From positions 744,001 to 808,000 of the forward strand of contig QNQO01000224.1 of assembly GCA_003290165.1 (NCBI GenBank): a stretch of DNA of 64,000 bases, read 5' to 3'. Source of the stretch: Berberis thunbergii. Taxonomy: Eukaryota > Streptophyta > Magnoliopsida > Ranunculales > Berberidaceae. Made by a program: the position numbers and the translations under genes. Shown piece after piece: positions 32,219 to 44,689 of this stretch. Position 1 is the stretch's first letter; every line of letters begins with the position of its first letter. The notes beneath the pieces were generated by a model. The model was not told the DNA's origin, did no database searches, and saw nothing but the letters and a program-made list of their open reading frames with translations.

Positions 32219-32231
32219 CACTACACCAAAA

Positions 32232-32465
32232 ATGGCCATTAGCAACGGTTTTAAACCGTGGGAGTAACCCCTTGGCACAGCTTCGAACCGTGGGCTGTAG
32301 GGGCGTCGCTAAATCCTCAATAATGGCTAAAAATCGTGGCAAGTCCTAGCCACGGTTATAAGCCGTTGCAAAGGTTTTAGCCATGGTTATAAGCCGTGGA
32401 AAGTCATGGCCACGGCTCTGAGTCGTTGCAATAGTTAGCCATGGTTTTAAGCCGTGGCAAATTTT
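32232..32465. repeat. CACTA left subterminal repeats
   Basis: About nine variants of agcc-acggtt-taagccgttgg and its complement alternate in both orientations. Confidence 0.88.
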
Positions 32466-32671
32466 TTTTTTTTGCTATCAAATGACTTTTTATTACATCT
32501 TATAAGCTTTATTTCTAGAAAATAAAAATTTTAATGTGCCAAACTTAAACGAATAGAGGCAAAGTAATGTAATTAATAAGATTATACAATTTTATCAAAT
32601 GTGCCAAACTTTGTTTCATGCTGTGCACGTTTTGTCATTTGTCAGTTGACCAGATTATACAATTACATCAA

Positions 32672-33621
32672 ACCATGACCTCCAGAGCATTATACATGGC
32701 AAATGCAGAATCATGATGATGATAGACCCATTTTTCTTAACAAACTCCACCAACTGGGTCAGCTGTTCCCTCGTTGCAGCAGAACCAGTAGGATTGTTTA
32801 GGGAGCAGAAAAATATGACATCCGTGCGTGCAACTTTTAACAAATCAGGGAAAAACCCATTCTCTGGATTGCACCTCATATACTCGATGTTTCCATATCT
32901 CTCAACATCCTTCTGATATTGTCCAGTTTGACCTATAATAACACCTGAATCTACATATGCCTGCTCTGAGAAAAGTAAGTTAAGTGATCAAGCAGAGAAC
33001 TATAAAGAATACAAATCGATTAAATAAATAAATAAATAGAACACATGATAAAGTTCAACATCAGCCCTCATACTAATAAGTGATCAACAGTCTCTCCTCA
33101 ATTGATAATCTACTAGGAAGTTATATATTGACACATTAAGTTCATGTAGATACCACTAGTATACAACATGAAGGACAAACCAAGATGAACTAAACAAGGC
33201 TGAGAACCAACTTCATTATCAAACTTAAGGAATTATATCTATATGTAATAAAGAAAAAAATGGCAAAAACATAACAGGATAGCAAATAAAAGGTTCTCTT
33301 AAATTATTAATAAGTTGCATTGAGATTATGATTAGAACATACAGGGTAGGATGGGTCCTGAACCACGATTGTCTTATCAGATCCAAAGAGGAGCTGCCAT
33401 AAAAAAGGACGAAGTTTCAAGGTTAGCATTATAAAACAAGGTGGAAGATTGTTCGTTGTGCATTTAAAAGCAATCAATGCACCATAGCCAAGCATGCCAG
33501 AGCAATAACAACAAACCTGAAGACGAGAAATGTCACACTTTGCTCCATCTAACACATATATATCGCTTTCTTCGATGCCAAGGTCACCATAAAATTTTGC
33601 TGCTAGAGAAGCTCTCAGTTG
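32672..33621 (-). pseudogene. DAP-like: Captured LL-diaminopimelate aminotransferase fragment
   Basis: The parent is the plastid PLP enzyme that converts tetrahydrodipicolinate to LL-diaminopimelate in lysine synthesis (the AGD2/ALD1 family is close). Three exons with consensus borders: 33621-33517 (QLRASLAAKFYGDLGIEESD, then DGAKCDISRLQ), 33393-33343 (LLFGSDKTIVVQDPSYP) and 32960 to about 32672 ([59 protein letters not shown]). The NNPTG motif of fold-type I aminotransferases is kept. A one-base frame slip follows KKNGSIII, where the family has YDSAYAMY. The PLP lysine and both ends are absent, so no enzyme activity is expected. Confidence 0.92.
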
Positions 33622-35145
33622 CTGCACAATTAATTTAAACATATCAGTGTCTGCGACAATAAAGGAGGGAAATCAAATGATTCATGGGACTTGAAGAAGA
33701 TTAGATCTCTAGGTATTTAGCAATCTACAGTAATGAAGCAACCATATTTTAGACAATCTGTCATTTTAAACACTGTTTGGAATTTTCATCTTTCTTTCTC
33801 TCTCTCTCTCATGTTATATACAACCTACATGCTGAGTCTTCTTTCTTTGATCAATTAAAAAGAAGGAAAGAACTCTGCAGGTTAATTATGTTATCAGCTC
33901 ACTTTTTCAAAATTCATCCGCATATATCAATATGGAATCCCGAATCTTCTTGGTATAAAGGTTCATGTATACCTTTTCACTTTCATGAAAGTGTCACCTC
34001 ATACTGTTAATATAAGGTGCCAAAACACATTATGATATCTATATTGATGCAGTCAATAATGTATCAGATCAAAGCCAAAAGCCAAATCACAAACTTACTT
34101 TTCCTAATAATATAATGTATCTGATATATTGTAGTTTGTGAATTGATAATAATCTCAACAGAGCAAAGCCAAAAGCTGAACACAAGTTTAAAGAATTGCA
34201 ACATTTTCTTAATTTAATGCATTGCACTTACAATATAGTACAATTCAATGAAAATATTTAATTTAATGCATTGGACATGGAGTGTACGAGTACCATCAAA
34301 TTAAAATATATTCTTTAACAACATTACCTCCTAAGAAGTTTAGAAAAGTTTTCACTTTTTGTTTTGCATAGCAGTAAAACAGTTCCAGCAGATGGCACAT
34401 TGTAGTTCAACTGAAGGATTTCAAAATTAACCCTGAAGCATGGATACAAATTGTTCAACTATTTGGCAAATACTACAATAAAATTAGATCAAGAGCTTTA
34501 TCCAAGAACAGTCGTCAATAAGTTAGATAACAACAACATGGATACTAATTATCAGACACGTTGGCCAGAAACGAGACACTTTTAGTTAATGTCAAAACCC
34601 TGCATATTAACATCAAAACGACACACAAGAAAACATAACACAAGCTTGATCAATCTCTTACTGCAACACCCACACACAAAAACAAAGCAAATCAATGAAA
34701 CCCAATACAAGAAAACAACTCTTCCTATTTCAAAAACAGAACAGTAATGAAAACCATGAGTTTTGTTTGGTCTAACGCATTGAAGGTTCACCACTCAACA
34801 TGGCAGGGGGTAATAATTCCATTGATTCCAGGCAAACAGAACTTGAGAAAGCTTAAACATGCATTTGGCTATAAATAATGTCTCCAAAACAGGCCACTAA
34901 AAAAATACTTTAAAGGCATTCTAAAGCAATAGTTTTTTGGTGGGAAACCTGAGAAGAGTATCACCCTTTAGCTTTTCTAACTAACATTTACCCCTTGACA
35001 ACAGAAAGAAAATGAAAAAACTTGATATGATTAAACTGCAATAACAATAATAATAATAACATATTTGAGAAGATAAGCTAAAGCTTCAATAAATAGAAGT
35101 GCATAACATCTAAAAGTTATGCAATGGAATGGTGAATATACATAC
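33622..35145. other. CACTA interior, nothing recognised
   Basis: AT-rich DNA with a CT-rich simple tract near 33790. It may include intron sequence of the captured genes on either side. No domain was found. Confidence 0.4.
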
Positions 35146-35217
35146 AGTGTCTTAAGGTTAGGAATTTGTGACAATGTCGAAGGAATGGGACCTGTCAATT
35201 GATTGCTCGTCAAAAAC
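35146..35217 (-). pseudogene. Captured LRR exon
   Basis: A 72-nt exon with cag and gt borders encodes exactly one 24-residue plant leucine-rich repeat (TSNQLTGPIPSTLSQIPNLK). One-repeat 72-nt exons are typical of LRR receptor-kinase genes. The source gene cannot be narrowed from one repeat. Confidence 0.8.
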
Positions 35218-35496
35218 CTGAATACAAATGCAATCCTGCACTGTATATTAGGAGGCTAAAAAAATCCTACTAAAGATAAAAGAACAGAACTAAAGTAGGA
35301 CCCAACAATCGAAAACAACCTTAGGTTTAAAATCAAATAAAATACTAAGCTCTAATTCAATTAAAGATGCCACAGATGAAGTACAGGAAACTCTCATTAG
35401 GAGGCGAAAAAAAAAACAAATGTTAATGTGTGCTTCCTAAAGAAGAAATGATAACCATGCAAATCTGAACAAGAAAAATCCGAAGGCCATCATTAC

Positions 35497-42997: not shown

Positions 42998-44034
42998 AAA
43001 GTAGTCAACTCTGAGAATATTTATTCCTCAATCGAACCCCCATTAAATCAAACCTTTTGCAGGGAAAACAAATAGTTAAGTTAAGATTTTTAGTGAATCA
43101 AACATATTGCAAAGTACCCAAAAAAATCAGTGGAGTTGAAGAAGCAAACTTTAACAAAGTAAAAAACATAAATCATAAATATAGGGATAAATCAAAAAAA
43201 AATCCCAAACAATAAATGAAGGAGTGGGTTGGTGGATTGACTTTAAAATATGGCATAATTGTCTAATGCATGCATTTGCTTAAAGCCTTAAACTGATGAG
43301 TGATTCTAATTGTTAAGTGGAAACAAACCATGTGCACGCAGTTGCTGCCTAGAATACTTACATGCAAAAACTTCTCCATTGTCCTATCCACTGGTAAAAG
43401 GGCAAGGTATTCAGTTGTACATACAAAAACTTCTCCATACTCCCTTCTTCCTAAGGTTTCACATTGGTTCAACATGAGGCATATAAAAAAGGAGATGTCA
43501 AACACAGTTTAAAGCATAGAAACATAAGCTCAACATAAGGCATAAGAAAAGTGAGATGTCAAACACATTTTAAAACATATAAACAATTGCAATTATGGTA
43601 CAGTAGAAACTCAAATAATTAAATCTAGTACCCAAACATGGCACGCAGAAGTGCTAGAGTACAATTGCACTAGCAGATTGATGCTTGGTAGTCATTGTTA
43701 TCTAAATATATCAAGGATATAAGCACTAAACAAGAAGGTTATGACACTAAAAAGTGAATACCTGACATAAGTGGTAGAGAAATACTGAAAGCATGTCAGG
43801 TGTTGAAGCACACTTTGGATGATGATTCACATGGAAAGTTTTGTATGTGCAGAGAAAACCTAACCTGAAATACAAAACACAGATCATTCCTTATCAATTT
43901 TAACATCTAAATAACTTATAGACAATAGTGAAGTTTCTTCACTGATGACAAAACCAAACAATAACAATCCGATTTTTATCAAGCAAAAAACCCAATTTAA
44001 ACTTTCTCCCTAATTGATTGATATTCAAAGTAAA
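42998..44034 (-). other. CACTA interior with one exon-like piece
   Basis: At 43863-43760 (minus) a segment with a cag acceptor and a gtattc donor gives a Cys/His-rich frame (LGFLCTYKTFHVNHHPKCAS). It was not recognised and could be one more captured exon. The remainder is AT-rich, with a repeated acaaaaacttctccat word at 43368 and 43425. Confidence 0.35.
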
Positions 44035-44180
44035 ACCTTCAATGGGGGTGTAAAACCAGGCTTCATCATCAACAATCTTCTTCGGGAGCGGAGAAATTGA
44101 TCCATTCGGAGAAATCTTCTTCTTCTCCTCTTCAGAAATCGAGTTGGAGAAAAGGAGAAAATGAGTTCTAGGGTTTGCTT
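44030..44180 (-). pseudogene. Possible first exon near the CACTA right end
   Basis: Minus strand, after a leader with aaccctagaact: SEEEKKKISPNGSISPLPKK then IVDDEAWFYTPIEG, ending at a gt donor near 44034. It lies where CACTA transcripts of this orientation would begin. The parent gene was not recognised. Confidence 0.4.
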
Positions 44181-44270
44181 TGCTGAAAGAAGAAAAAAAT
44201 AAGAAGAAGAGATCAACAAAGAGATCTAAAGATAAAGGAGATCTAAAGAAGAAGAAGGAGATCTTACCTT

Positions 44271-44336
44271 CTCTTCTTCTTCTTCTTCTTCTTCTTCTTC
44301 TTCTTCTTCTTCTTCTTCTTCTTCTTCTTCTTCTAT
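44271..44336. repeat. (TTC)n microsatellite, about 20 repeats
   Basis: An uninterrupted ttc run near the right end of the CACTA element; the preceding 60 bp is its imperfect complement (gaagaag words), so the region can fold. Confidence 0.95.
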
Positions 44337-44449
44337 CGTCCTCTCCTTCTTTCGTCCTTCTTCTTCCCTTGTGAGAATCTGGTTTTCATCAATTTTTTTC
44401 GCCAAAGCATGAAACCATTTTGGCCAAAGCGCGAAAGTTAAAAAAATGT

Positions 44450-44689
44450 TAGCTACGATGTCAAACCGTTGGCAGGTTTAGCCACGGTTATAAACCGTTG
44501 GCAGTTATAGCCACGGTTTAAAACCATAGCAACCCTTTTGGTGTAGTGTTTTTTTGCCACAGTTTTATTTTTTAGCCACGGTTTTAAACCGTTGGTCATT
44601 ATAGCCACGGTTTTTAGCCATGGCAAATAAACCAACGGCTTCGAGCCGTGGCCACCTCCCCGTAGATAAACAAGCCTTTTGGTGTAGTG
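44450..44689. repeat. CACTA right subterminal repeats with a second inner terminus
   Basis: Repeats of agccacggttttaaaccgtt. A second terminus-like ccttttggtgtagtg ends at 44548, 141 bp inside the true end at 44689, so the tip was duplicated. Confidence 0.88.

Follow-up and report, generated by a model that had tools for sequence, protein, structure and literature searches.

How does a single transposon come to hold parts of several host genes, and does the direction in which they lie point to selection? The question is raised by a 64-kb window of the Berberis thunbergii genome (contig QNQO01000224.1, positions 744,001 to 808,000), the whole stretch of DNA that we analyzed, which carries a CACTA transposon loaded with gene pieces. 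The original prediction had placed a CACTA element at 32219-44689, with pieces of at least five nuclear genes all on the minus strand, and had read the uniform strand as a sign of selection or of a mechanism that favors it. The element is borne out by its terminal inverted repeat, subterminal repeats and ACT target site duplication, and the five pieces by homology searches and placement with tblastn. Selection on strand is not demonstrated. We conclude that this is very probably a non-autonomous, gene-laden Pack-CACTA, which took up plastid-type DNA and parts of five or more nuclear genes stepwise, as genomic DNA, and then moved into a gypsy retrotransposon.

Termini and insertion site

The region was analyzed on both strands by repeat search and by comparison with itself and with the window, and its coding pieces were compared with protein and structure collections. 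Self-comparison recovered a 13-bp terminal inverted repeat (TIR), CACTACACCAAAA, at 32219 on the plus strand and at 44689 on the minus strand. The left end opens with CACTACACCAAAAATGG and the right end closes with the inverted CACTACACCAAAAGG. Repeat search found copies of a subterminal repeat around CCACGGTTTTAAACCGT at both ends of the element, and the subterminal short repeats are both direct (families D3 and D5) and inverted (pairs I1, I2 and I4). With a TIR of the CACTA-start type, a 3-bp duplication and subterminal repeats, the element belongs to the CACTA (En/Spm) group. Its right end is the 5' side, since the cargo reads on the minus strand. An additional right terminus, with its own complete TIR, lies just inside the outer one (Table 1). 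There are no further CACTACACC ends besides these within the 64-kb window, and the exact TIR pattern had no match in viral contigs. A 61-bp tandem duplication (43461-43585) lies between the rightmost captured exon and the right end.

The element sits inside a gypsy-type retrotransposon, whose reverse transcriptase and protease lie at 45318-47171. Joining 195 bases of the left flank, one ACT and 60 bases of the right flank restores the retrotransposon's gag in phase (QINTT/PAVGPSSSSTPT), and the CACTA insertion is later than its host. A stop lies 12 codons beyond the rejoined site, and the host gag is therefore itself broken. The host repeats that we took as long terminal repeats (LTRs; 31552-31963 and 49115-49526) are 96.6% identical. 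They differ at 14 of 412 sites (Kimura two-parameter distance 0.035), which gives the host an age of about 1.3 to 4.4 million years at assumed rates of 1.3e-8 and 4e-9. Just upstream of the host, 28596-29606 is a second relative, which matches the 3' portion of the host element (48114-49127) at 76%.

Autonomous CACTA members encode a TNPD-type transposase; non-autonomous members are by definition without one. No transposase family was found at E up to 1 in the 30 open reading frames (ORFs) scanned, from 83 of at least 50 aa, a scan that remnants could escape. As no transposase domain appeared among the scanned ORFs, the element looks non-autonomous and would probably need a helper to move. Judged on its sequence, with host gene sequence between CACTA ends and no detected transposase, it is a probable Pack-CACTA.

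Captured sequences

From right to left, the nuclear cargo consists of the first coding exon of a type I inositol polyphosphate 5-phosphatase (IP5P), a GLUTAMINE DUMPER gene, exons of PUMILIO-24 (PUM24), one exon of a leucine-rich repeat (LRR) receptor kinase and exons of an LL-diaminopimelate (DAP) aminotransferase. When the relatives fetched by the protein searches were aligned back by tblastn, 120 of 120 for PUM24 and 120 of 120 for IP5P matched at these loci on the minus strand, as did 117 of 118 GLUTAMINE DUMPER relatives at that gene; the remaining one fell in a neighboring bin, still within that gene. Other tblastn matches within the element, on either strand, were weak (E 0.013 or worse) and were discounted as chance. 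The named relatives are mostly from flowering plants. Pfam named only the aminotransferase piece among the five; the PUM24, LRR, IP5P and GLUTAMINE DUMPER pieces matched no Pfam family above its cut-off. Two of the protein queries were composite, PUM24 with LRR (best 120 of 452 matches) and IP5P with a coiled-coil-like ORF (best 120 of 315), and their LRR and coiled-coil parts are not resolved among the matches listed.

The three DAP-aminotransferase exons, when joined, match PDB 2z1z at E 1.9e-66. The last has a probable frameshift near 32710, judging by the letters, beyond which the homology presumably continues. The LRR exon matches 81 PDB sequences at E up to 1, many of them LRR kinases, with about 13 bits for a single repeat in the best of them; we take it to be ERECTA-like. 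The PUM24 piece has a best protein match of E 9.3e-27, with its best relatives in Aristolochia (among the best 120 of 452), and matches an animal PUM24 relative in PDB at E 6e-7. The best alignment of its first exon (35863-35984) changes frame four times, and the upper part of that exon reaches only E 4.6. For IP5P, homology begins near 42991 with up to 94% identity over about 35 residues, and all 120 of the matches listed (best 120 of 315) carry PF22669. The first ten residues of the IP5P relatives were not found. Introns are retained between the three DAP-aminotransferase exons and between the three PUM24 exons, and the pieces were therefore captured as DNA rather than as RNA copies.

Table 1. 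Positions within the 64-kb window of the CACTA element, its termini and the sequences that it contains.
Feature	Position	Strand	Description
Target site duplication ACT, left copy	32216..32218		3 bp
CACTA element	32219..44689	-	12,471 bp; 13-bp TIR, ACT flanks, subterminal repeats
LL-diaminopimelate aminotransferase exon	32655..32960	-	AG acceptor, no donor, 3' end broken
LL-diaminopimelate aminotransferase exon	33343..33393	-	51 nt, AG..GT borders
LL-diaminopimelate aminotransferase exon	33517..33621	-	105 nt, AG..GT borders
LRR exon, LRR receptor kinase	35146..35217	-	72 nt, open
PUMILIO-24 exon	35497..35568	-	72 nt, open
PUMILIO-24 exon	35655..35768	-	114 nt, open
PUMILIO-24 exon, decayed	35863..35984	-	weaker similarity up to 36047 or 36075
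TG..CA unit, solo-LTR-like	37046..41086		4,041 bp; ATCTC duplication
FAHD1 (acylpyruvase)-like coding fragment	39546..39632	-	inside TG..CA unit
Coiled-coil-like ORF	40029..40577	-	182 codons; inside TG..CA unit
GLUTAMINE DUMPER gene	41328..41759	-	intact single-exon ORF, 143 codons
Plastid-type 23S rRNA piece (5' end)	42559..42713	+	approximate ends; Rfam and 23S-annotated match
Second copy of PUM24 coding sequence (35909-35933)	42715..42738	-	about 24 bp; adjoins 23S piece
IP5P first coding exon	42886..42997	-	GT donor, open
Inner right terminus	44536..44548	-	complete CACTACACCAAAA, subterminal repeats inside, 141 bp inward of outer end
Target site duplication ACT, right copy	44690..44692		3 bp

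GLUTAMINE DUMPER proteins are regulators of amino-acid export. The ORF in the element has 118 relatives (best E 6.9e-22) and, as we take the motifs, a transmembrane segment and the VIMAG motif. It retains 31 of 34 conserved columns, the relatives retaining 31.7 on average (standard deviation 1.5, n=118), and 26 of the 118 retain fewer than it does. By eye, a TATAAAA lies at 41885-41892, about 130 bp upstream of the ATG. This is likely to be the only cargo able to yield a normal protein. It could be that the copy is a working mobile gene, for whose sake the element is kept, and that the remainder is passenger DNA. The full-length single-exon ORF, its conserved columns and the upstream TATAAAA speak for this. 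Against it, a young neutral copy would look intact too. Moreover, no listed relative exceeds 57% identity, so that neither age nor selection is measurable. We regard such an account as doubtful.

A plus-strand piece resembling the 5' end of 23S rRNA lies between GLUTAMINE DUMPER and the IP5P exon. It matches the Rfam 5.8S model at E 5.9e-6 and 34.9 bits, under the gathering score of 42. A 23S-annotated match came from small records of a single E. coli genome out of 5,426. Against plasmid records, the lowest E-values among the 10 of 139 matches listed are to the cyanobacterium Leptolyngbya, at 83.5%. We assume from the plastid gene that the piece is of plastid rather than bacterial type. The exact 23S pattern had no match in genome contigs. 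A noisy literature search found no published case of plastid cargo in a CACTA element, a weak negative, and the words 'plastid' and 'organell' do not occur in the available text of one review.

Adjoining the 23S piece is a short second copy of PUM24 coding sequence. Its alignment scores 38, where 300 shuffles gave a maximum of 30, and a same-strand internal match as good occurred in 1 of 100 resampled elements. The copy is possibly filler DNA. That a longer PUM24 fragment extends upstream of the copy is unsupported, as 3 of 200 shuffles reached the protein score. Two other candidates were set aside: Rfam microRNA- and snoRNA-like matches at 44181-44333, which coincide with a CTT microsatellite and lie far under their cut-offs, and a sigma-70 promoter scan, which is not meaningful in a plant and whose result was not used.

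Two further minus-strand fragments lie within a TG..CA unit between the PUM24 exons and GLUTAMINE DUMPER. The unit opens with TGTCACGCC, closes with GGTGTTACA and is flanked by a 5-bp ATCTC at 37041-37045 and 41087-41091. Having TG..CA ends, a 5-bp duplication and no second LTR, 37046-41086 resembles a solo LTR, with 36 nt as the longest direct repeat inside it among the repeats listed. Its first 433 bp match 2366-1984 of the window at 74%, with the same terminus. The unit is a separate insertion within the CACTA element. The FAHD1-like fragment in it matches Pfam PF01557 at E 1.8e-5 (25.0 bits against a cut-off of 23.9) and FAHD1 in PDB at E 3.9e-5; the coiled-coil-like ORF at 40029-40577 matched no Pfam family above its cut-off. 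Both are unusual content for an LTR.

Could the block instead stem from a gene-dense region, by translocation or segmental duplication, with CACTA ends added later? Five pieces on one strand with splice borders retained would agree with such an origin. Only parts of genes are present, however, with the plastid-type piece between two of them, and the whole block lies within a retrotransposon and is bounded by the ACT duplication. The cargo genes presumably lie apart in Arabidopsis, which we also count against it. Because partial genes lie between CACTA ends with a target duplication, we consider a segmental origin very improbable.

Strand, splicing and a possible chimeric transcript

The original prediction took the common strand of the five nuclear pieces as a mark of selection or of a favoring mechanism. 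For five of five, the two-sided p by strand count is 0.0625. It becomes 0.22 for five of six, when the plus-strand 23S piece is added, 0.016 for seven of seven, when the FAHD1-like fragment and the coiled-coil-like ORF are added to the five, and 0.070 for seven of eight. We set the count of seven aside because these two fragments belong to the separate TG..CA insertion and one of them lacks an identity. The p-values are also not independent of the choice of this case, which was picked for looking uniform. At 0.06, or 0.22 with the plastid-type piece, orientation provides no demonstration of selection; for now, the best reading of the common direction is chance, or mild filtering against antisense cargo.

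Splice borders had been described as kept, which holds for most of them. A GT donor is present in 7 of 8 exons and an AG acceptor in 6 of 8; of the three borders without one, the first is where the last DAP-aminotransferase exon breaks off, the second is the start of the decayed PUM24 exon, which could not be placed, and the third is the start of the IP5P exon, which we set at an ATG. These counts are partly by construction, as borders were placed at GT or AG near the ends of homology. Of the proposed splice positions, 35755 falls within a PUM24 exon whose acceptor is 35768, and a donor near 44034 was not confirmed, the local ORFs there matching no Pfam family.

The splice borders make possible a transcript from the right end that joins the borrowed exons, and it would be mostly non-coding. 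A chimeric protein was sought by placing six downstream exons after the IP5P exon in 64 ordered combinations, from which GLUTAMINE DUMPER and the decayed PUM24 exon were excluded, and is not supported. At its longest the ORF reaches 80 aa, and in no combination does it enter the frame of a second parent. One combination stays open through the added exon, but in a frame that differs from that of PUM24.

These results bear on whether selection, or some mechanism, favors sense cargo, with the element acting as an exon trap and its chimeric transcript retained for the protection or benefit that sense cargo brings. The five minus-strand pieces, the seven of seven obtained with the TG..CA fragments and the retained borders are in keeping with it. 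So is soybean Tgm-Express1, whose five captured fragments are described in the available text as cassette exons of one transcript (PMC1947982). Likeness to known gene-carrying CACTA elements had been part of the claim, and in Tgm-Express1 it has a near precedent; against it stands a grapevine CACTA in which, according to the text available, a PPR fragment lies opposite in sense to the transposase (PMC2528002). The shared strand of the Tgm-Express1 fragments is itself what we infer; the word 'orientation' does not occur in the main text of that report (PMC1947982). Together with the p-values and the case's selection for uniformity, the stops within 80 aa in 64 of 64 combinations count against sense selection, as do the decay of the PUM24 piece and probably of the DAP-aminotransferase piece. 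We find it unlikely, slightly more so than a working GLUTAMINE DUMPER gene as the reason for the element's persistence. What the strand pattern does offer is a reason to survey cargo strand over many plant genomes.

Growth of the element and its surroundings

As the pieces come from several genes, several rounds of capture are likely. Their states of decay differ: the IP5P exon, the LRR exon and two PUM24 exons are open, GLUTAMINE DUMPER is whole, the first PUM24 exon is decayed and so, probably, is the DAP-aminotransferase piece. This unevenness fits stepwise capture, constraint on GLUTAMINE DUMPER, or both. Growth may have proceeded by fusion of neighboring elements, the additional right terminus being a possible leftover. 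In the Pack-TYPE growth model, as given in the text available, neighboring insertions fuse and their inner termini are lost or mutated (PMC8903248), and fusion of neighbors also appears as a published model in PMC13317346. Repair of breaks, by template switching, may have copied in distant DNA; the 24 bp of PUM24 sequence next to the 23S piece, a short match, would be its trace. The TG..CA unit would have entered as an event of its own. The element would already have been loaded with its cargo when it arrived in the gypsy host, its movement relying on a transposase encoded elsewhere.

Several points weigh against this account. The inner terminus could instead come from a nested insertion or a local duplication of the end, and cargo may have been captured after arrival. 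The 24-bp match is one of eight internal matches listed, and repeats are not rare in the element, since tandem, subterminal or other close repeats account for the remaining seven. The LRR piece is a single exon of 24 residues, and the transposase scan took in 30 of 83 ORFs. In a broader scheme, the element would have come to transport a working GLUTAMINE DUMPER gene, having grown as neighbors fused one after another and through templated repair, and would retain sense cargo because antisense cargo was eliminated, as might happen if small RNAs silenced the parent genes. We think this scheme quite improbable.

Stepwise growth of a Pack-CACTA thus remains our preferred reading. Helitrons have no inverted terminal repeats and no target duplication, and this element has both. 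Multi-gene Helitrons of maize are otherwise similar in holding several gene pieces, in stepwise capture and in multiple termini, according to the text available (PMC3288121). Closer are the Pack-CACTA and other Pack-TYPE elements of Arabidopsis, maize and rice, described in the accessible part of PMC8903248 as non-autonomous DNA transposons with host DNA. Where sizes are stated there for maize Pack-PIF and rice Pack-Mariner, the averages run from 311 to 535 bp, and these elements have one or two short pieces (PMC8903248), whereas the Berberis element has at least five genes, 12.5 kb and an inner terminus that is still complete. CACTA elements of Chenopodium (PMC8978399) and grapevine (PMC2528002) also hold host gene fragments but, from the text available, bear a transposase and have one gene each.

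Tgm-Express1, in the soybean wp allele, is also of the CACTA superfamily and contains both exon and intron sequence from five host genes that are unrelated to one another; its splice sites are retained and its pieces serve as exons of one transcript, as reported in the text available (PMC1947982). At 5.7 kb it is smaller than the 12.5 kb here and holds other genes; it lies in a gene intron and uses that gene's promoter, whereas this element lies in a retrotransposon. The available text mentions neither a plastid piece nor an extra terminus in Tgm-Express1 (PMC1947982). The Berberis element is a well-preserved member of a kind already known, a multi-gene Pack-CACTA with an intact gene and marks of growth. 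Its value is that one copy combines several marks bearing on the growth of large multi-gene CACTA elements: a leftover complete terminus, unequal decay of the cargo, plastid-type DNA and a short stretch of one cargo gene repeated at another cargo junction.

Other repeats were seen in the window. Terminal inverted repeats of about 520 bp, 89% identical and with AGA/TTC microsatellites, bound a MULE-like element at 15402-22077, which is flanked by a 9-bp duplication, CACTTCTAT, at 15393-15401 and 22078-22086, the only plus-strand copies in the window. The element contains a 145-bp tandem array and an ORF (16922-17497) with a ribonuclease H1 N-terminal (Cauli_VI) domain, and is possibly a Pack-MULE. 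Direct repeats of about 600 bp at 9188-9795 and 12516-13099, 91% identical and 3.3 kb apart, are possibly an LTR pair. Copia-type retrotransposon domains (Pol_BBD, gag_pre-integrs and RVT_2) occupy 23338-26049 on the plus strand, and a 69-bp tandem array lies at 3558-4155.

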